The position numbers and the translations under genes were made by a program. The notes beneath the pieces were generated by a model. It was given only the letters and a program-made list of their open reading frames with translations, had not been told where the DNA came from and did not search any database. Positions 7,244 to 14,126 of a stretch of DNA of 14,361 nt are shown here, in pieces (within the stretch, counting starts at the first letter, position 1; every line of letters starts with the position of its first letter). This DNA comes from Thermoplasmatota archaeon (GTDB taxonomy: Archaea; Thermoplasmatota; Thermoplasmata; Thermoplasmatales; Thermoplasmataceae): assembly GCA_023379355.1 (NCBI GenBank), contig JAMCUD010000021.1, forward strand, positions 1-14,361, in the 5' to 3' direction.

Positions 7244-7404
7244 GCAACGGAACATCAGTAATGGGAAAGATGGGAAGCAAGAAGGTACACATAAGGTGCA
7301 GAAGATGTGGCCATCATTCATACCATGTAAGGGAGAAGAGGTGCTCTCACTGTGGATATCCCGCCCCAAAACTCAGATCCTATAGATGGGCTAAAGCCAA
7401 ATGA
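7240..7404 (+). CDS. rpl37e: Large ribosomal subunit protein eL37 (L37e)
   Basis: This 54-residue zinc-binding ribosomal protein has Cys20/Cys23 in HIRCRRCGHHSYHV and Cys35/Cys38 in RCSHCGYPAP. It ends in the basic PKLRSYRWAKAK tail typical of L37e. GAGGTGA lies 6 bases before the ATG, inside the Sm-like gene, and the ATG overlaps that gene's stop (ATGA). The last 53 bases are shared, in another frame, with the start of purF, and the codons for Lys-Arg-Cys in its second zinc half-site also carry the purF ribosome-binding site. The protein is full length despite this overlap. Confidence 0.95.
   Translation: MSNGTSVMGKMGSKKVHIRCRRCGHHSYHVREKRCSHCGYPAPKLRSYRWAKAK
7338..7343 (+). promoter_or_regulatory. 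Ribosome-binding site for purF inside L37e
   Basis: GAGGTG ends 8 bases before the GTG start of purF at 7352 and lies within the L37e codons for Lys-Arg-Cys. It supports the unusual GTG start and the long overlap. Confidence 0.6.
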
Positions 7405-8797
7405 TCACTGCGCTGTTGTCGGTTTCATAGGCAAGACAACTGCTTATCCGTATCTTGTGGCATCACTCCGTACGCTTCAGCACAGGGGGCAGGAGAGTGC
7501 GGGCATTGCAACGTTTCATGACAGCATAATCAGCGTCAAGAAAGGCATGGGACTTGTCCATGAGGTTTTTACTGACAGAGATATGGAGACAGGATCAATA
7601 CTCAATGGACAGGTTGGCATAGGGCATACACGCTATTCCACCTCCGGATCAAAGGGATTGGAGAATATAGGCCCTTTCCTTGTTTCAAATTCATATGGAT
7701 ATATTGCAATTTCCCACAATGGCGAGATCACAAACGCAAGCCAGTTGAGAGAACAGCTGAAGCTCAAAGGCGTTCCATTTCTAAGCAGTTCTGATACCGA
7801 AGTTATGCTCATGGAAATTTCCACAGAGATTAACAGCCATGGAATCATAAGTGGTTTCAGGAACTCTGTGAACAAACTCAGGGGAGCGTATTCATGTGCA
7901 ATAATGGTTGGAGACAGACTCTTCGCTCTCCGTGATCCAATGGGTTTCAGGCCACTGGTTATCGGGTACGCTGATGAAAGCTACATTGTAGCTTCTGAAA
8001 GCTGTGTAATGGACATACTCAATGGCGAGAAGATAAGGGATGTCAAACCGGGAGAACTGGTAGAATTAACTCCTGATGGACCCAAAAGCATATTTGTCAT
8101 GCCCGCGGCACATACGTCACACTGCATGTTCGAATACGTTTACTTTGCAAGACCTGACAGCGTCATAGATAATGTGGAGGTGTTCCAGACCAGAATCAGC
8201 TTGGGAAGAACACTTGCAAAAGAATACCCTGCCCAGGCAGATGTGGTGATACCTGTTCCGGATTCAGGCAGGGCACAGGCCCTGGGATATTCCCTGGAAT
8301 CAGGAATAAGGTACAGTGAAGGTCTAATTAAGAACAGGTTCTCCGAGAGGACTTTCATAATGCCAAACCAGAAATCCCGGCTTTCAGCCCTGAAACTTAA
8401 ACTGAATCCCATAAAATCCGAGGTAGATGGAAAGAGAGTGGTACTTGTTGACGACAGTATCGTCAGGGGAAATACAATGAAACATATTATTGCAATTCTC
8501 AGGAAAGCTGGAGCCAGAGAAGTACATGTGAGAATAGGGTCACCACGTATCATAGCGCCATGCTACTTCGGTGTGGACATGAAGACCAAGGACCAGTTCA
8601 TAGCCTCCGGTAAGACAATAGAGGAGATTGGTGACGAGATTGGAGCGGACAGCATAGGATATACCTCCATTGACGGTCTTGTCAGGAGCATAACCATGGA
8701 AAAGAGATCACTCTGTATTTCATGCCTGACTGGGGAATATCCAATTCCTGTGGAAGGTGGAAAGTATTCAGGGCAGCAGGAGCTGGAAAGCTTCTGA
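7352..8797 (+). CDS. purF: Amidophosphoribosyltransferase (glutamine PRPP amidotransferase)
   Basis: PurF makes phosphoribosylamine from PRPP and glutamine, the first committed step of purine synthesis. The 481-residue protein has an Ntn-type glutaminase domain with nucleophile Cys20 (DHCAVVGF), GHTRYSTSG at 91-99 and SHNGEIT at 121-127. The PRPP loop VVLVDDSIVRG is at 363-373. Cys258, Cys404, Cys455 and Cys458 match the four iron-sulfur ligands of the Bacillus-type enzyme, so an oxygen-sensitive [4Fe-4S] form is predicted. Cys20 must become N-terminal by removal of a 19-residue propeptide. The only in-frame start is the GTG at 7352, with GAGGTG 8 bases before it; this overlaps L37e by 53 bases. 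Its stop abuts that of nop5 on the other strand. Confidence 0.95.
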   Translation: MDIPPQNSDPIDGLKPNDHCAVVGFIGKTTAYPYLVASLRTLQHRGQESAGIATFHDSIISVKKGMGLVHEVFTDRDMETGSILNGQVGIGHTRYSTSGSKGLENIGPFLVSNSYGYIAISHNGEITNASQLREQLKLKGVPFLSSSDTEVMLMEISTEINSHGIISGFRNSVNKLRGAYSCAIMVGDRLFALRDPMGFRPLVIGYADESYIVASESCVMDILNGEKIRDVKPGELVELTPDGPKSIFVMPAAHTSHCMFEYVYFARPDSVIDNVEVFQTRISLGRTLAKEYPAQADVVIPVPDSGRAQALGYSLESGIRYSEGLIKNRFSERTFIMPNQKSRLSALKLKLNPIKSEVDGKRVVLVDDSIVRGNTMKHIIAILRKAGAREVHVRIGSPRIIAPCYFGVDMKTKDQFIASGKTIEEIGDEIGADSIGYTSIDGLVRSITMEKRSLCISCLTGEYPIPVEGGKYSGQQELESF

Positions 8798-9643
8798 TCA
8801 CCTTGATTTTGCTTCCTGTATCCTTTTAGTTATAAGATTTTTCATGGTTTCAGTATCTATTCTGGTGCCGTAGAAGTCTGCCCTGACTGCTATGGCAAGC
8901 TTGTTTGCAACAATCCTGGCTATTTTCCCCCTTTTTGAGGGGGGAAGGGACGATATTCCCGGAAACTTGAAAAGAAACCCATGCTTTGGTGATGGTGTCC
9001 CTGATCTCATATGCTTGAAAAATGCCTTCTCTGCACCAAGGACCTGAAAAGTGCTGGCCGGAAACTTCACCATATTTCTCAAACCACCTGACCTCCAGAT
9101 CAGTTCCAAAGCCAGGGGTACCCCTATGAGGTCTGCAGTGTTGGGCATTATTTTTACTGCCATTTCACTTGTAAACTGGAAAAGATCTGTTCTGAATGAA
9201 CACATGGAAACCCCTATTGAGGCGGATTTTGCAACCATTGAAATTGATGGGTTCGTATCAGAAACTCCTGCCATGGACCGGAAATAAAGGCATGGATCAT
9301 CCTGGTGGTATTCCACCCCTGTGAGTATTCCCAATGAATCTACCTTCTCCAGGTACAGGTTGATAATCTCCGTAATTTCCTCATAGAGAGAATAAAATTT
9401 TATGAGAAGCCTATCCTCAGTGAATTCATCTTTTATTCTTTTTTTTCCGTACTCCGTAAGGAGGTCGTGCAGGGAAGGTTCGCTTTTCTCCCTTATCATT
9501 TCTGTTTCTGGAATCTCTCCCCTTCTCAGGGCGTCGAAAATCTCTGTGAAATTTGTCCTGAGGTCTCTGTATACCCATATCTCTTTTCCGTTCCTTATCT
9601 CTCCGTACCATTTTCTTGTTGTTTTCTCTGAATCTGCCGTCAT
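8798..9643 (-). CDS. nop5: C/D box RNP core protein Nop5 (Nop56/58 family), short form
   Basis: Nop5 scaffolds the archaeal C/D guide RNP, linking L7Ae-bound RNA to the methyltransferase fibrillarin. From the ATG at 9643 the protein has 281 residues. The C-terminal Nop domain (about 165-261) is unmistakable: PLALELIWRSGGL, KFPASTFQVLGAEKAFFKH, PKHG and SKRGKIARIVANKLAIAVR. A reduced NOSIC-like helical part (about 57-110) includes IKDEFTEDRLLIKF. Only about 55 residues precede it, and the long coiled-coil arm seen in larger family members is mostly absent. A TTG at 9655 could add four residues. The first 218 bases overlap the end of cbf5 in another frame. No fibrillarin gene is adjacent. It is the last gene of the secY-cbf5 operon and ends exactly against purF. 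Confidence 0.88.
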   Translation of the reverse strand: MTADSEKTTRKWYGEIRNGKEIWVYRDLRTNFTEIFDALRRGEIPETEMIREKSEPSLHDLLTEYGKKRIKDEFTEDRLLIKFYSLYEEITEIINLYLEKVDSLGILTGVEYHQDDPCLYFRSMAGVSDTNPSISMVAKSASIGVSMCSFRTDLFQFTSEMAVKIMPNTADLIGVPLALELIWRSGGLRNMVKFPASTFQVLGAEKAFFKHMRSGTPSPKHGFLFKFPGISSLPPSKRGKIARIVANKLAIAVRADFYGTRIDTETMKNLITKRIQEAKSR

Positions 9644-10619
9644 CTGACCTATCAACCCTCTTCCTACTCTGTTCCGGTTTGGTTATTTTCCTTACTTCCC
9701 TTGTGGGTTTCTCCTCAGAACCTGAGATGAAATTTACCCTTTTCGGATTTGGATCAAGCAATACCCTGTCGAAATCCACAACCTTTGTATCCGTGATCTG
9801 GGAGTATGATACAAGCATTTTTCCACTGGCCAGTATCTCATTTGTTTCAGATATTGCAACAACCCTATCTCCCCTCAGTGGCGTTCCGATTATTGCCTTG
9901 ATGCCACCTGGAAAAAGATCCGAACCGTGTGCAATATTCTGCATTGCCGATGTTTTAACCACTATCTTTCCGTAATCCCTGAAGAGGTATTCCATTGGAA
10001 ATACCATTTTCCTCAGTGCACTGCTGTCACCATCTTCTGCAAGCTTCATTGCGTCACTGAGATCCTGAAGCGTTACAGCATCCTTCTCAGTAAATATTCC
10101 GCTTACGGTCCTGCGGAGGTCCATTAACTGTGCCCCCGTGCCCAGGACATACCCCATATCTGTGCAGAGGGTCCTGACATAGGTTCCGGATTCCGATCTT
10201 ACCCTGAAAAGTATATCCCTTCCCTTCTTCTCCATGATCTCCAGACCATATATCCATCTTGTGCGGAGGTTCCTTGAAACTGCAGATCTAACTGGAGGTA
10301 TCTGATATATTTCGCCTGTGAATTCCTCCATTACCTCTCTTACTTTTTCCTCACTTACATCCTCGTGGGTGAACATAACACCAACATATTCCTTTGGCAT
10401 TTCATGAGCAATCTCAACGAGCTTAACTGCCCTCCCCAGCGCCATTACAAGAACCCCTGTGGCAGAAGGATCCAGTGTACCCACGTGGGCTACTTTTTCT
10501 ATGCCCATAATGGACCTGACCCAGTAATCAATCTGGTGACTTGTGGGTCCCTTTGGTTTATCAATGATTACAAAGCCATCAAAAAAGTCAGCAGAAGTCT
10601 TTTCCCTTGATCGATTCAT
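9426..10619 (-). CDS. cbf5: H/ACA RNP pseudouridine synthase Cbf5/TruB with basic C-terminal tail
   Basis: Cbf5 is the catalytic subunit of archaeal H/ACA guide RNPs and can also act on tRNA U55. The TruB-type catalytic domain has GPTSHQ (25-30) and the catalytic Asp50 in HVGTLDPSATGVL. YVRTLCTDMG (147-156) is also typical. A PUA domain spans about 216-290. Archaeal members usually end soon after; here 397 residues include an extra ~100-residue tail rich in Arg, Lys, Asp and Asn (VRRDKERKR, KGRDSRNRNDKGEK, RKKKNKR). Most of that tail is read from the start of nop5 in another frame. It includes several CGG, CGA and CGC codons, suggesting the nop5 frame came first. GGTGA lies 9 bases before the ATG, and it overlaps cmk by 32 bases. 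Confidence 0.93.
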   Translation of the reverse strand: MNRSREKTSADFFDGFVIIDKPKGPTSHQIDYWVRSIMGIEKVAHVGTLDPSATGVLVMALGRAVKLVEIAHEMPKEYVGVMFTHEDVSEEKVREVMEEFTGEIYQIPPVRSAVSRNLRTRWIYGLEIMEKKGRDILFRVRSESGTYVRTLCTDMGYVLGTGAQLMDLRRTVSGIFTEKDAVTLQDLSDAMKLAEDGDSSALRKMVFPMEYLFRDYGKIVVKTSAMQNIAHGSDLFPGGIKAIIGTPLRGDRVVAISETNEILASGKMLVSYSQITDTKVVDFDRVLLDPNPKRVNFISGSEEKPTREVRKITKPEQSRKRVDRSDDGRFRENNKKMVRRDKERKRDMGIQRPQDKFHRDFRRPEKGRDSRNRNDKGEKRTFPARPPYGVRKKKNKR

Positions 10620-11121
10620 AAATTTTATTCACCACTTCTTCCACCGAAAGAGTATCGGTGTCAATTACAAGATCGTAAATGCCTGTTAGGCTATAATCTA
10701 TTCCATAAAATTTCCTGTATCTGAGATATTCAGATTCTTCTCTTACTTTCACCATCTCGCCGGTCTCATTATCCTGATCCCTGTAACTGACTCTCTGTAC
10801 CCTCGTGTTGAATGAAGCATTCAGGAAAATTTTGAAGGCTTCCAGATTATTTCTTACGCATAGCCATCCGGCAAGTCTGGATTCCAGAACGATATTATCA
10901 TTATCCCTGAGAAATTCAAGTATCATCCTATCCTGTTTTTCATCGATTTCCGGCCGGGTTTCAGCATACCTGTTGAATTCTTCAATACTCATACCGTGAT
11001 CCTTCGCAAGAGATCTGAAAAAGACGCCACCAGAGATAAATTTATAGGAAAGGCGAGACGCAAGTTGTCTGCCCACCGTGGATTTTCCGCTCCCAATGGG
11101 ACCGCTAATTGTTACCCGCAT
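10588..11121 (-). CDS. cmk: Archaeal-type cytidylate kinase
   Basis: This 177-residue kinase transfers phosphate from ATP to CMP/dCMP for the pyrimidine pool. The N-terminal P-loop is GPIGSGKST (7-15), followed by FISGGVFFRSLAKDHGMS, which is typical of the short archaeal Cmk (cytidylate kinase 2) family. The substrate-binding middle carries ESRLAGWL (80-87), and an Arg-rich lid (RVQRVSYRD) follows. It lacks the large CMP-binding insert of the bacterial enzymes, as expected. It overlaps the DUF106 gene by 17 bases and cbf5 by 32. Only a weak ribosome-binding site is visible, so it depends on coupled translation. Its place between DUF106 and cbf5 is a common euryarchaeal arrangement. Confidence 0.93.
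   Translation of the reverse strand: MRVTISGPIGSGKSTVGRQLASRLSYKFISGGVFFRSLAKDHGMSIEEFNRYAETRPEIDEKQDRMILEFLRDNDNIVLESRLAGWLCVRNNLEAFKIFLNASFNTRVQRVSYRDQDNETGEMVKVREESEYLRYRKFYGIDYSLTGIYDLVIDTDTLSVEEVVNKIYESIKGKDFC
10629..10633 (-). promoter_or_regulatory. Ribosome-binding site for cbf5 inside cmk
   Basis: GGTGA lies 9 bases before the cbf5 ATG at 10619 and within the last codons of cmk. It supports translation of cbf5 from within the overlap. Confidence 0.5.
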
Positions 11122-11818
11122 TGTATTCTATCTGTCCTGGATTCTCAGACTGGTACTTCTTCAGCCTGTATGAAAAATCAAAGAACTTTATTATCATACT
11201 GACAAAGTATCCGATCACAAGGCTTGCAATAAATTCAACTTCAATCCATGCAGGGAATACCCAGAGATGTGAGGTAGCAATGTTCACATTAAACGACCAT
11301 GGAACCGAGATCATCTGGTATGGAAGGGCGCTTATGAAATAGAACAGCCAGATAACAATAAGAAATGTGAATATACTGAGAACCATGAGAGGCTTCATCT
11401 GGTTCATCTGAACCATATTCTGCTCCATCATCATGCTCGACTGCATCTTGCTCAGTTTCTGGATCTTATCTTTCTGACCGCTCCTGTAAGCCTCCCTCAT
11501 TACCTTCTGGAAAGCCCTCATTCTCAACTGAGCCTTTCCCATCCTTATCCAGTCAGTAAAGAAGTACCTCGGAATTGATGTTATAAGACCTATAATAATT
11601 CCACTGATGAGAATACTGATCAGGGGATAAGCGTAATGGAATCCAAAAACAGGCATAAATACATCATTAAGGGCACCACCTATTACCCCCCTCAGTGAAG
11701 GGTTAGCAATAATTATCAGCAGAACAAAACTCATGAGCATGGGAAGCATCTGGTAGCCCATCATCTTCTTCATCTGGTCTGCCTGCTGTTTTTGCGCATC
11801 TGTCCTGCTTTCAACCAA
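11105..11818 (-). CDS. DUF106/EMC3-type membrane insertase (Oxa1 superfamily)
   Basis: This 237-residue integral membrane protein belongs to the archaeal DUF106 family, related to Oxa1/YidC, Get1 and EMC3. These proteins help insert membrane proteins independently of, or alongside, SecY. Hydrophobic segments lie at about 24-38, 63-85, 143-163 and 196-214. Between the second and third is a basic, Met-rich cytoplasmic coiled-coil region (MQSSMMMEQNMVQMNQM) that may bind signal sequences or ribosomes, as suggested for the family. The start appears to be a TTG at 11818, with GGGGAGG about 14 bases upstream, which is rather far; an ATG at codon 16 is an alternative. It overlaps adkA by 8 bases and cmk by 17. 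Its nearness to secY fits a shared role in membrane insertion. Confidence 0.88.
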   Translation of the reverse strand: MVESRTDAQKQQADQMKKMMGYQMLPMLMSFVLLIIIANPSLRGVIGGALNDVFMPVFGFHYAYPLISILISGIIIGLITSIPRYFFTDWIRMGKAQLRMRAFQKVMREAYRSGQKDKIQKLSKMQSSMMMEQNMVQMNQMKPLMVLSIFTFLIVIWLFYFISALPYQMISVPWSFNVNIATSHLWVFPAWIEVEFIASLVIGYFVSMIIKFFDFSYRLKKYQSENPGQIEYNAGNN

Positions 11819-12365
11819 CGAACATCAACCTCCCCGTTATTTTCTCGGCTGCCACTTCAGGTTTGCCCTCCACATTTGTGATGTAGTTTACTGTGGCTCC
11901 CGTATATACAGAATATGCAGCCGCATAATATCTGTTTATCTCCTGATGCTCTCTTATTTCATTAACCTTGTCCTCGTCCCTCGCCCTTGTTCCGTCAAGC
12001 TCTCTTCTCTTCTTTATTGTTTCAGGATCGGCTTCCAGAACGAAATATGAGGAGACTTTCAGTTCTCTGAGAACCCATTCAGGAAGTCCTGGAAGATACC
12101 CTCTCGGTGACTTTATTGACATATGCGTATCAATGATCACGTCGTCCATGTGACCTATTGCTGAAGATGCTTTCTTCTGAAGATTGATCTGTGTATCAAT
12201 GTTCAGTTTCCTCAGTTCATCCCTGTTACTGACCAGCTTTATGTCCCTTGCCATCTCGTACATCAATGTTCCAAAATTGATGATATCATAGTTGGAACGC
12301 TTTTTTACTATTTCAAGGACCGTGGATTTTCCCACTCCGGCCACACCGGATATTACAACCCTCAT
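11811..12365 (-). CDS. adkA: Archaeal-type adenylate kinase
   Basis: This 184-residue kinase interconverts AMP, ADP and ATP in the cytoplasm. It has the archaeal AdkA form rather than the bacterial one. The P-loop is GVAGVGKST (7-15), then YDIINFGTLMYEMA for AMP binding and IIDTHMSIKSPRGYLPGLPE at about 77-96. A basic segment KKRRELDGTRAR (118-129) completes the active site. The ATG directly follows the secY stop with no gap, and GGTGG lies just before it within secY. secY-adk linkage is ancient and found in bacteria and archaea alike. It overlaps the DUF106 gene by 8 bases. Confidence 0.95.
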   Translation of the reverse strand: MRVVISGVAGVGKSTVLEIVKKRSNYDIINFGTLMYEMARDIKLVSNRDELRKLNIDTQINLQKKASSAIGHMDDVIIDTHMSIKSPRGYLPGLPEWVLRELKVSSYFVLEADPETIKKRRELDGTRARDEDKVNEIREHQEINRYYAAAYSVYTGATVNYITNVEGKPEVAAEKITGRLMFVG

Positions 12366-14126
12366 CTATCCACCAACGAAGAACTGCCTTATGACTGGGT
12401 GCATTTCCATCAGCTGTTCCCTTCCCATGGCCTCGTAGAACTGGATCACTATACCTACAGCCAGGAGAAGACCTGTACCGCTGGTGTTACCCACCGTACC
12501 TATGAGATCAGCTCCAGCCGCCAGAAGCCCCACCGCCAGTCCGCTAAACACCGTTATTGCCGGAATGTATTTTTTCAGTACCCGTTCCATGACCTTGGGA
12601 TCCCTCCTGAATCCTGGAATCTGCATACCACTTGACCGTATCTGTTTTGCAACAGAGGCGGGACCCATATTGGTTGTTTCAATCCAGAATTTGGCGAACA
12701 TTATACTTGCTATTGCCATGAATCCAACGAACGCTATTATGTGGATAAGTTCCTGGAATGAAGAATGACCCAGAAGAATGTTCTGGTATATGCTTGGCTG
12801 GAAGAGAGGGAAGAACCAGTCCGATAATCCGCTAGGCGTGAACAGATAAAATGCCAAGCCTCCGGTTGGCGTTGTGCTTGAAATACCTAAAGTCGATATC
12901 TGTGCAGCTGTAGGATAAGCCCCTAAAAGGGCATCATGCCCCAGTATTGGAACATGACTCAGAACAGGGCTACTCCAGAACAATAATGTCCACATTGATA
13001 TGTTTGCCAGAAGTGCAGTTGCCAGTATAACCGGTATATTTGAAGCATATAACAGTTGAAGTGGATAACGCCCTCTAGCTCCCCGCACCCGTTCGTGCGA
13101 AATTGGCAGTTCTATCTTGCTGCTCTGGAAATATGCCACTATGAAGAATATGAAAAGGGTACCTATTAGGGCGATTATGGGATTCGGCTGTTGGAATAAT
13201 ATCTGTAGGTATCCCGTACTCAAAAGGTAACCGGAGGTAGCATGCCCCAGTATGAAGAACATTTTTGGAAGTGCACCTGCAGGTGGGTTAATCAGCGAAA
13301 GAGCTGAACCCGCTGTGGATGGAAGCCAGCTGAATGTTCCGGTTACCAGCTGCTGAGATACCCCTGCAGCTATAAACAGTGATATTCCAGAACCTATGCC
13401 GTATTTAGATACAACCTCATCCATGAGAAAAACGAGGTATGAACCAAAGAACAACTGGAGAATGATTATTGTTTCCGAAAGAAACTGCCCGTACCCAGGG
13501 ATCACGGAATTAATGCTTGTCACCAGCCCCGCATCTGGGACAAGGTATCCGAATGCCTGGGGTATGGCCTCCACGAATATCATGACTATGACCAGAAGCT
13601 TCTGAACGCCCTGGTATATGGCCTTATCCTCAGAGTTTGTGAGATCTATATTGAATATCTTCGCCCCAGCGAAGAGCTGCATGACTATACTTGCAGTAAC
13701 TATTGGCCCTATTCCCAGATCCATAAGGGATCCAGATGCACCCGCAAATATTGCCCTGAATGAGGCGAACACATCAACTGTCTGGGTTGTGTTCAGACCA
13801 TATATGTAAATGTTTGTAAGAATGAAATAAAGGATAACAACTGCTGCTGTCCAGATTAATTTCCACTTGAATTCCACATGTCCCTTTGCCTTCTTGACCG
13901 CAGGGAGTTTTGCGGTGAAATTCTCAAGTCCATATAATTTGCTTGGCTTTGGACCCGCGTAACTCATTATGAGGTAACCAATTAGAAACAGGGGGGCCGT
14001 TATGGCCGAAGCTATTAAAAGCTTTATGATCCCCAGATGCCCGAAATACCAGAAGCCCAGTACCACAAGGGCAAATACAGCAATAATGGGAATTGCTGCT
14101 CTCTTATTCCTCTTTATTTCCACCAT
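12366..14126 (-). CDS. secY: Protein translocase subunit SecY with N-terminal extension
   Basis: SecY is the pore of the Sec61/SecYEG channel. The canonical protein begins at about residue 67: KGHVEFKWKLIWTAAVVILY is the usual lateral helix and first membrane segment, and FRAIFAGASGSLMDLGIGPI (123-142) is the plug. The conserved cytoplasmic loops include ELPISHERVRGARGRYPLQL (339-358) and WIETTNMGP (481-489). The end is EMHPVIRQFF. At 586 residues it is longer than the usual 430-490. Two extra hydrophobic segments (about 11-29 and 32-57) precede the core. The external loop between about 385 and 455 is also enlarged. The ATG overlaps L15 by 23 bases with no strong ribosome-binding site. It lies in its usual place between L15 and adk. 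Confidence 0.96.
   Translation of the reverse strand: MVEIKRNKRAAIPIIAVFALVVLGFWYFGHLGIIKLLIASAITAPLFLIGYLIMSYAGPKPSKLYGLENFTAKLPAVKKAKGHVEFKWKLIWTAAVVILYFILTNIYIYGLNTTQTVDVFASFRAIFAGASGSLMDLGIGPIVTASIVMQLFAGAKIFNIDLTNSEDKAIYQGVQKLLVIVMIFVEAIPQAFGYLVPDAGLVTSINSVIPGYGQFLSETIIILQLFFGSYLVFLMDEVVSKYGIGSGISLFIAAGVSQQLVTGTFSWLPSTAGSALSLINPPAGALPKMFFILGHATSGYLLSTGYLQILFQQPNPIIALIGTLFIFFIVAYFQSSKIELPISHERVRGARGRYPLQLLYASNIPVILATALLANISMWTLLFWSSPVLSHVPILGHDALLGAYPTAAQISTLGISSTTPTGGLAFYLFTPSGLSDWFFPLFQPSIYQNILLGHSSFQELIHIIAFVGFMAIASIMFAKFWIETTNMGPASVAKQIRSSGMQIPGFRRDPKVMERVLKKYIPAITVFSGLAVGLLAAGADLIGTVGNTSGTGLLLAVGIVIQFYEAMGREQLMEMHPVIRQFFVGG

Follow-up and report, generated by a model that had tools for sequence, protein, structure and literature searches.

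An apparently old dual-coding overlap of cbf5 and nop5 encodes a basic, predicted disordered Cbf5 tail in part of the Thermoplasmatales

Overlapping cbf5 and nop5 genes

The window, a stretch of 14,361 nt from contig JAMCUD010000021.1 of an acid-loving archaeon of the Thermoplasmataceae, carries the genes of two guide-RNP core proteins side by side on the reverse strand (Table 1). cbf5 reads from 10619 to 9426 and ends in a stop codon after 397 aa, while the short-form nop5 (281 aa) begins at an ATG at 9643, with an alternative in-frame TTG at 9655. The first-pass annotation had described an overlap of about 218 bases with both frames open, and this proved correct: the 3′ end of cbf5 and the 5′ end of nop5 have 218 nt in common, read in two frames such that cbf5 codon position 1 is nop5 codon position 3. 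The stop codon that it had placed near 9690 in the nop5 frame is also present, as a TAA at exactly 9685-9683.

Pfam matches in Cbf5 comprise TruB_N, TruB_C_2 and PUA, and matches to structure-chain sequences likewise identify both the TruB catalytic domain and the PUA domain. The PUA match ends at residue 281, and 112 residues lie beyond VVDFDR, which closes the conserved part of the protein, in line with the earlier description of a Cbf5 that runs on for about 100 residues past its PUA domain. Database relatives of equal length share 83–94% identity with it, and among named organisms Oxyplasma meridianum comes closest (89% identity in Cbf5).

The surrounding genes are tightly packed. The stop codons of nop5 and of the convergent gene at 7352-8797, which we take to be purF-like, stand back to back with zero bases between them (8795-8800). 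Upstream, genes are dense from 10588 to 14126: the start of cbf5 is overlapped over 32 nt by a cytidylate-kinase-like gene, which is itself preceded by open frames that abut or overlap by 8–23 nt.

Table 1. Positions of genes and sequence features around the cbf5–nop5 overlap, in window coordinates
Feature	Position	Strand	Basis
cbf5 (H/ACA pseudouridine synthase), 397 aa	9426..10619	-	Pfam domains; same-length relatives
nop5 (C/D guide RNP scaffold), 281 aa	8798..9643	-	ATG at 9643
Dual-coding overlap	9426..9643	-	Frames, stop avoidance, third-position data
Cbf5 C-terminal basic tail, residues 286-397	9429..9764	-	Predicted disordered from 293; matches to solved archaeal Cbf5 chains stop at query residue 286-290
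cbf5-frame motif IQRPQDKFH, residues 350-358; family [VI]Q[KR]P..[KR].H	9546..9572	-	Alignment columns 132-140
cbf5-frame terminal motif RKKKNK, residues 391-396; family RKxK[ND]K	9432..9449	-	Alignment columns 187-192
nop5 Trp codon of WYG motif, comparison anchor	9608..9610	-	Alignment of pairs
Shine-Dalgarno-like AGGT 5′ of nop5 ATG, within cbf5 codons	9647..9650	-	4 nt only
TAA bounding nop5 frame upstream	9683..9685	-	Sequence; open-frame limit

Two classes of cbf5–nop5 pairs

Loci for comparison came from a scan of genome contigs with a Cbf5 alignment, from which the best 80 of 219 loci were taken, and from a Nop-protein search across the order of a related genome (104 of 117 genomes). 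A total of 158 loci entered the survey and nop5 was found in 157, of which 30 had no adjacent cbf5 match (some of them lying at contig ends). Merging exact duplicates left 76 distinct adjacent cbf5–nop5 pairs, in which the position of the cbf5 stop codon was measured from the Trp of the nop5 WYG motif.

The distribution of stop positions is bimodal. In 43 of the 76 pairs the cbf5 stop lies +179 to +233 nt from the WYG Trp, in 33 it lies at -65 to -1 nt (a count that includes five basal loci, L102, L108, L112, L114 and L115, mostly without a true WYG), and no pair falls between the two classes. All 43 overlapping pairs share one phase, and at the DNA level 40 of their overlaps are distinct. The overlapping class includes records titled Ferroplasma acidarmanus (Fer1), Acidiplasma aeolicum and Thermoplasma sp. 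As the species are related, these counts are not independent, and the 33 controls represent other lineages.

Constraint on both reading frames

The expected behavior of the cbf5 frame was modeled species by species: nop5 codons were replaced by synonymous ones drawn at the frequencies seen in that species' non-overlapping parts. Against this null, the cbf5 frame over nop5 has no stop in any of the 43 overlapping species where 4.4 are expected in each, and the mean probability of an open frame is 1.2%; since openness itself defines membership of this class, the non-overlapping control matters. There, the homologous frame holds 159 stops (182 expected), and none of the 33 pairs keeps it open. 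Of 2000 nop5-synonymous shuffles made from the window itself, 0.1% left the cbf5 frame open across 60 nop5 codons.

Third positions of nop5 codons carry the mark of the second frame. In the overlapping class T occupies 9.9% of nop5 third positions within the overlap versus 25.6% downstream, and in the controls 27.9% over the homologous stretch versus 25.2% downstream. Aligned on the cbf5 stop in ten-codon bins, T stands at 6–13% before the stop and at 24–31% in the six bins that follow; all 43 stop codons fall within the first of these six. This sharp change holds for the overlapping class as a whole and not for the 10 species that stop late, at +209 or beyond: depletion of T between +180 and +206 from the Trp was sought in them and was absent (25.6% versus 27.5% in 17 species that had already stopped), so residues past the terminal motif look unconstrained.

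Divergence at nop5 third positions was compared between the overlap and the downstream part of the gene in disjoint, close pairs chosen by one rule, with all 12 chosen per class reported. Divergence in the overlap is 0.39 of that downstream in the 12 overlapping pairs, each of which falls below 1, and the ratio is 1.07 in the 12 control pairs. Between the window and locus L001, 4 of 60 third positions differ in the overlap and 98 of 208 downstream (Fisher p 1.1e-9). At nop5 positions 1 and 2, controls change about twice as fast in this stretch as in the rest of the gene (0.126 vs 0.059), an excess that is absent where the overlap exists (0.045 vs 0.054), so dual coding seems to restrain Nop5 too. 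Nop5 residues are conserved in both classes of pairs, and selection acts on the cbf5 frame in the overlapping class; judged from sequence, the shared stretch is dual-coding, with each frame under coding constraint.

Composition, motifs and predicted disorder of the Cbf5 tail

The tail is basic, as had been noted at first reading. Among tails longer than 20 residues, those of overlapping species contain 29% K+R and 11% D+E with a net charge of +0.18 per residue, and those of non-overlapping species are nearly the same in composition (31% K+R, +0.18 per residue). This charge exceeds what nop5 imposes: compared with stop-free nop5-synonymous shuffles the tail has more K+R (18.4 versus 14.3) and fewer hydrophobic residues (9.2 versus 12.7), and against free shuffles its net charge is higher than nop5-synonymous codons would give in each of the 43 overlapping species and in 7 of the 33 controls. 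Residues 293-397 of the window's Cbf5 are predicted to be disordered (pLDDT <50), and the overlapped part of Nop5 is predicted to be folded.

Similarity in the cbf5 frame is 1.12 per pair among 23 representatives, versus 0.55 (sd 0.06) in 60 shuffles. In the column-by-column analysis, which took 23 of the 43 overlapping and 14 of the 33 other species, the largest excess of cbf5-frame conservation over stop-free nop5-synonymous shuffles fell in two short motifs, [VI]Q[KR]P..[KR].H (columns 132-140, z from -1.8 at column 139 to 9.5 at column 134) and the terminal RKxK[ND]K (columns 187-192, z 1.6-6.4). Several overlap columns, 139 and 186 among them, show no excess or a deficit. Arg at column 187 occurs in 37 of 43 overlapping species, always as CGN, and in 13 of 33 controls; the corresponding counts are 38 of 43 and 0 of 33 for Lys at column 190, 42 of 43 and 8 of 33 for Lys or Arg at column 192, and 30 of 43 and 2 of 33 for His at column 140. 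Lys and Arg at columns 134, 188, 190 and 192 are encoded mostly through A. That C is kept at one site and A at another for the same charge points to selection at the level of amino acids, and the comparative data establish such constraint on the cbf5 frame in three respects: positive charge, low hydrophobicity and the two short motifs.

Initiation of nop5 and the Nop5 protein

An in-frame ATG within 60 nt 5′ of the WYG motif was found in 42 of the 43 overlapping species, 194–251 nt upstream of the cbf5 stop. Shine-Dalgarno-like matches of at least 4 nt precede 34 of these 42 starts, with 8.2 expected from other positions, and matches of at least 5 nt precede 19, with 0.66 expected; the excess is weaker in the 33 non-overlapping pairs (15 versus 10.5 and 9 versus 2.3, respectively). 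In the window the site is short (AGGT, 4 nt). From its sequence context, nop5 very probably initiates on its own.

The first-pass annotation had suggested that the overlap couples production of the two proteins. Termination–reinitiation, according to PMC10666635, needs stop and start within a few nucleotides, from -8 to about +10, and in Haloferax a distance of 22 nt abolished coupling. The 194–251 nt that separate the nop5 ATG from the cbf5 stop exceed the distances at which the pairs described there, from Haloferax and E. coli, could reinitiate. Given this distance and the Shine-Dalgarno-like site of nop5 itself, coupling by this route is unsupported. A programmed frameshift out of cbf5 into the nop5 frame, at eight consecutive A residues (9439-9446, reverse strand), was considered and set aside: K at column 189 appears in only 9 of the 23 representatives, so the run is not general.

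Nop5 has the coiled coil and Nop domain of its family, the Pfam Nop domain covering residues 137-280 of the TTG-started frame, which are residues 133-276 of the 281-aa protein. It is short compared with the 366–388 residues of the chains in archaeal C/D RNP crystals, from which it is offset by 84–97 residues, and its residues 5-75 align only loosely to 3pla_A. Nop5 proteins of the order are mostly of this short form (about 280 aa), though fibrillarin is present in the genomes tested; fibrillarin loss as the reason for a short Nop5 was rejected for 8 of 8 related genomes, in each of which the protein scored over the cut-off. Among the 17 database relatives of Nop5 that were aligned, six (P0134-P0139) have gene models of 191–242 aa that begin past WYG. 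From the alignment, these starts are likely to be misannotated, probably as a consequence of gene callers avoiding long overlaps, and the overlap may thus account for wrong nop5 starts in databases.

Distribution and origin of the overlap and the tail

In outgroups, Cbf5 ends 8–18 residues past the VVDFDR position at all 22 loci. A further 17 Thermoplasmatales genomes were searched with Cbf5, giving 13 readable genes, two genomes without a match and two with partial or weak matches; all 13 readable proteins end 1–22 residues past the same position, most with a YPxxWK-like end. These short ends, in outgroups and within the order, imply that the tail belongs to one part of the Thermoplasmatales. 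At the 30 loci with nop5 but no adjacent cbf5 (L090-L101, L103-L106 and 14 within L151-L176), Cbf5 was tail-less in the searched genomes of this kind.

Tail and overlap do not coincide entirely. A tail of 25–285 residues lies upstream of nop5 in 27 of the 33 non-overlapping pairs; the L187 protein has 13 residues and those of the five basal loci 12–19. Outside the basal group 28 of 71 species lack the overlap (the 27 with a tail of at least 25 residues, and L187), so the overlap as such is dispensable. Relatives with an early Cbf5 stop, which the first-pass annotation had named as grounds for dropping its reading, therefore do occur (33 of 76), yet most of them carry a tail all the same, and they fall outside the overlapping groups on the tree. 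The share of the tail written before the nop5 Trp also varies among overlapping species, being 11–12 residues in Ferroplasma and Thermoplasma and 52 in the window. In the E-plasma lineage (L021, L023, L033) a tail of 283–285 residues lies wholly upstream of nop5.

On a quick tree of non-overlapping columns, in which L187 forms a long branch, parsimony needs two changes between overlap states; as far as the alignment goes, these could be either one gain and one loss or two gains. The tree is compatible with a single clade of all 43 overlapping species (p-AU 0.39). Summed branch length across these species is 12.7 changes per column, from which we infer that the overlap is old.

Alternative explanations for the open cbf5 frame

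There are other possible reasons why the cbf5 frame stays open over nop5. The first is ribosome traffic: elongating ribosomes on cbf5 could keep the nop5 start unfolded or tune nop5 output, with the tail as a by-product. The constant phase and narrow length range of the overlap, the position of the nop5 start within cbf5 codons, and the fact that the two are consecutive guide-RNP genes would all fit. However, selection extends 50–60 codons beyond the nop5 start, favoring Lys and Arg at specific sites and disfavoring hydrophobic residues, none of which is needed for passage, and 33 of 76 pairs do without the overlap; we regard this explanation as unlikely. An RNA element within 9426-9643, be it a structure, a guide sRNA or a regulatory site, could by itself give low third-position divergence. 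It is rendered quite improbable by a signal that tracks the cbf5 frame through stop avoidance and by column 134, which tolerates AAA, AGA and AGG alike. Known RNA families beneath the overlap were looked for and rejected, the window having no Rfam match at gathering score.

Loss of a cbf5 stop followed by neutral run-on, in which nop5 constraint happens to leave the other frame open and charged, has a point in its favor in that nop5 dictates much of the tail: V-V-R follows from W-Y-G, and many basic residues come from charged nop5 codons. Yet when nop5 is shuffled synonymously the cbf5 frame is shut in about 99% of draws and the charge comes out lower, stops occur in that frame in relatives that lack the overlap, and slow third positions are confined to pairs that have it; together these results leave neutral run-on with very little probability. 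A sequencing or assembly indel near 9700, raised at the outset as a possible artefact, is excluded for practical purposes: 43 of the 76 distinct pairs have the overlap, those of Ferroplasma acidarmanus Fer1 and Acidiplasma aeolicum among them, and same-length Cbf5 relatives exist at 83–94% identity.

Discussion

The best reading of these comparisons is an old same-strand gene overlap maintained by selection, and we consider it likely that what has preserved this dual-coding arrangement is a requirement of Cbf5 for a basic, disordered tail, with RNA as its probable target. Ribosomes on cbf5 would pass the end of the PUA domain and read the first ~60–75 codons of nop5 in the other frame, adding a disordered, Lys/Arg-rich tail to Cbf5. 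Nop5 would be translated from its own start inside cbf5, the overlapped part forming the folded beginning of its apparently shortened N-terminal domain. The tail might then serve the H/ACA particle as an arm that binds RNA, be it guide RNA or pre-rRNA, through electrostatic contacts, in which case the cbf5 stop could not come earlier. RNA binding by the tail is plausible, and in one clade of the Thermoplasmatales the tail probably took the place of the C-terminus typical of archaeal Cbf5. Canonical archaeal Cbf5 (2apo, 2hvy and others) has the same TruB and PUA domains, and the difference lies in what follows, 112 residues beyond VVDFDR in the window versus 8–18 in outgroups.

Long phase-1 overlaps are already a known kind. 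Among long same-strand prokaryotic overlaps phase 1 predominates, with 3′-extension of the upstream gene as the commoner origin, although the commonest overlaps are of 4 and 1 nt and the best-fitting simulation includes selection against overlaps of >60 bp (PMC3887535). The cbf5–nop5 pair resembles those pairs in being same-strand, long and in phase 1, and differs from them, as they are described there, in keeping 194–251 nt in the 42 species with an ATG and in showing selection in both frames. Thermus rnpA-rpmH, as described in PMC9841429, likewise unites two genes of the RNA and translation machinery on shared DNA in two frames. There, neighboring starts share one ribosome site and rpmH is nested, whereas here the 3′ part of cbf5 covers the beginning of nop5, which has a separate start.

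Charged N- and C-terminal extensions are a notable difference between eukaryotic and archaeal Cbf5 (PMC7991803). Eukaryotic Cbf5/dyskerin, Nop56 and Nop58 carry Lys-rich, disordered KKE/D tails, which PMC11528048 states to be absent from archaea. The first-pass annotation had likened the present tail to that of dyskerin, and this stands in part: both are C-terminal, follow the PUA domain, and are charged and (here by prediction) disordered. The likeness does not extend to the KKE/D type, as the archaeal tail has few acids (29% K+R, 11% D+E), does not form a K/E-D polyampholyte, and showed no KKE or KKD repeats by eye. By analogy it may work like the eukaryotic snoRNP tails, which does not imply kinship with them. 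In yeast, as the same source reports, cells that had lost only the Cbf5 tail showed no marked growth defect, and pseudouridylation in vitro was unaffected, while removal of this tail together with those of Nop56 and Nop58 slowed growth; a mild phenotype on tail loss would thus be unsurprising.

In full-text searches of openly accessible journal papers, no title or abstract opening among the papers listed described this overlap or tail. In 43 of 76 pairs, a dual-coding region of ~200–250 nt joins two guide-RNP core genes, and related lineages without the overlap provide a natural control that lets selection be read per frame. In its general type, though not in its exact make-up, the tail runs against the view printed in PMC11528048 that archaea lack Lys-rich disordered snoRNP tails. 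A broader proposal, for and against which we see the case as evenly balanced, is that Thermoplasmatales evolved their own Cbf5 counterpart of the eukaryotic basic snoRNP tails and that in some members this counterpart came to be encoded almost wholly within the beginning of nop5, leaving an H/ACA tail and the N-terminal domain of a C/D scaffold to evolve on shared bases; the tail would bind guide RNA or pre-rRNA, or help to concentrate particles at nascent rRNA. Culturable Ferroplasma, Acidiplasma and Oxyplasma would offer systems for studying the function of such a tail without a nucleolus.
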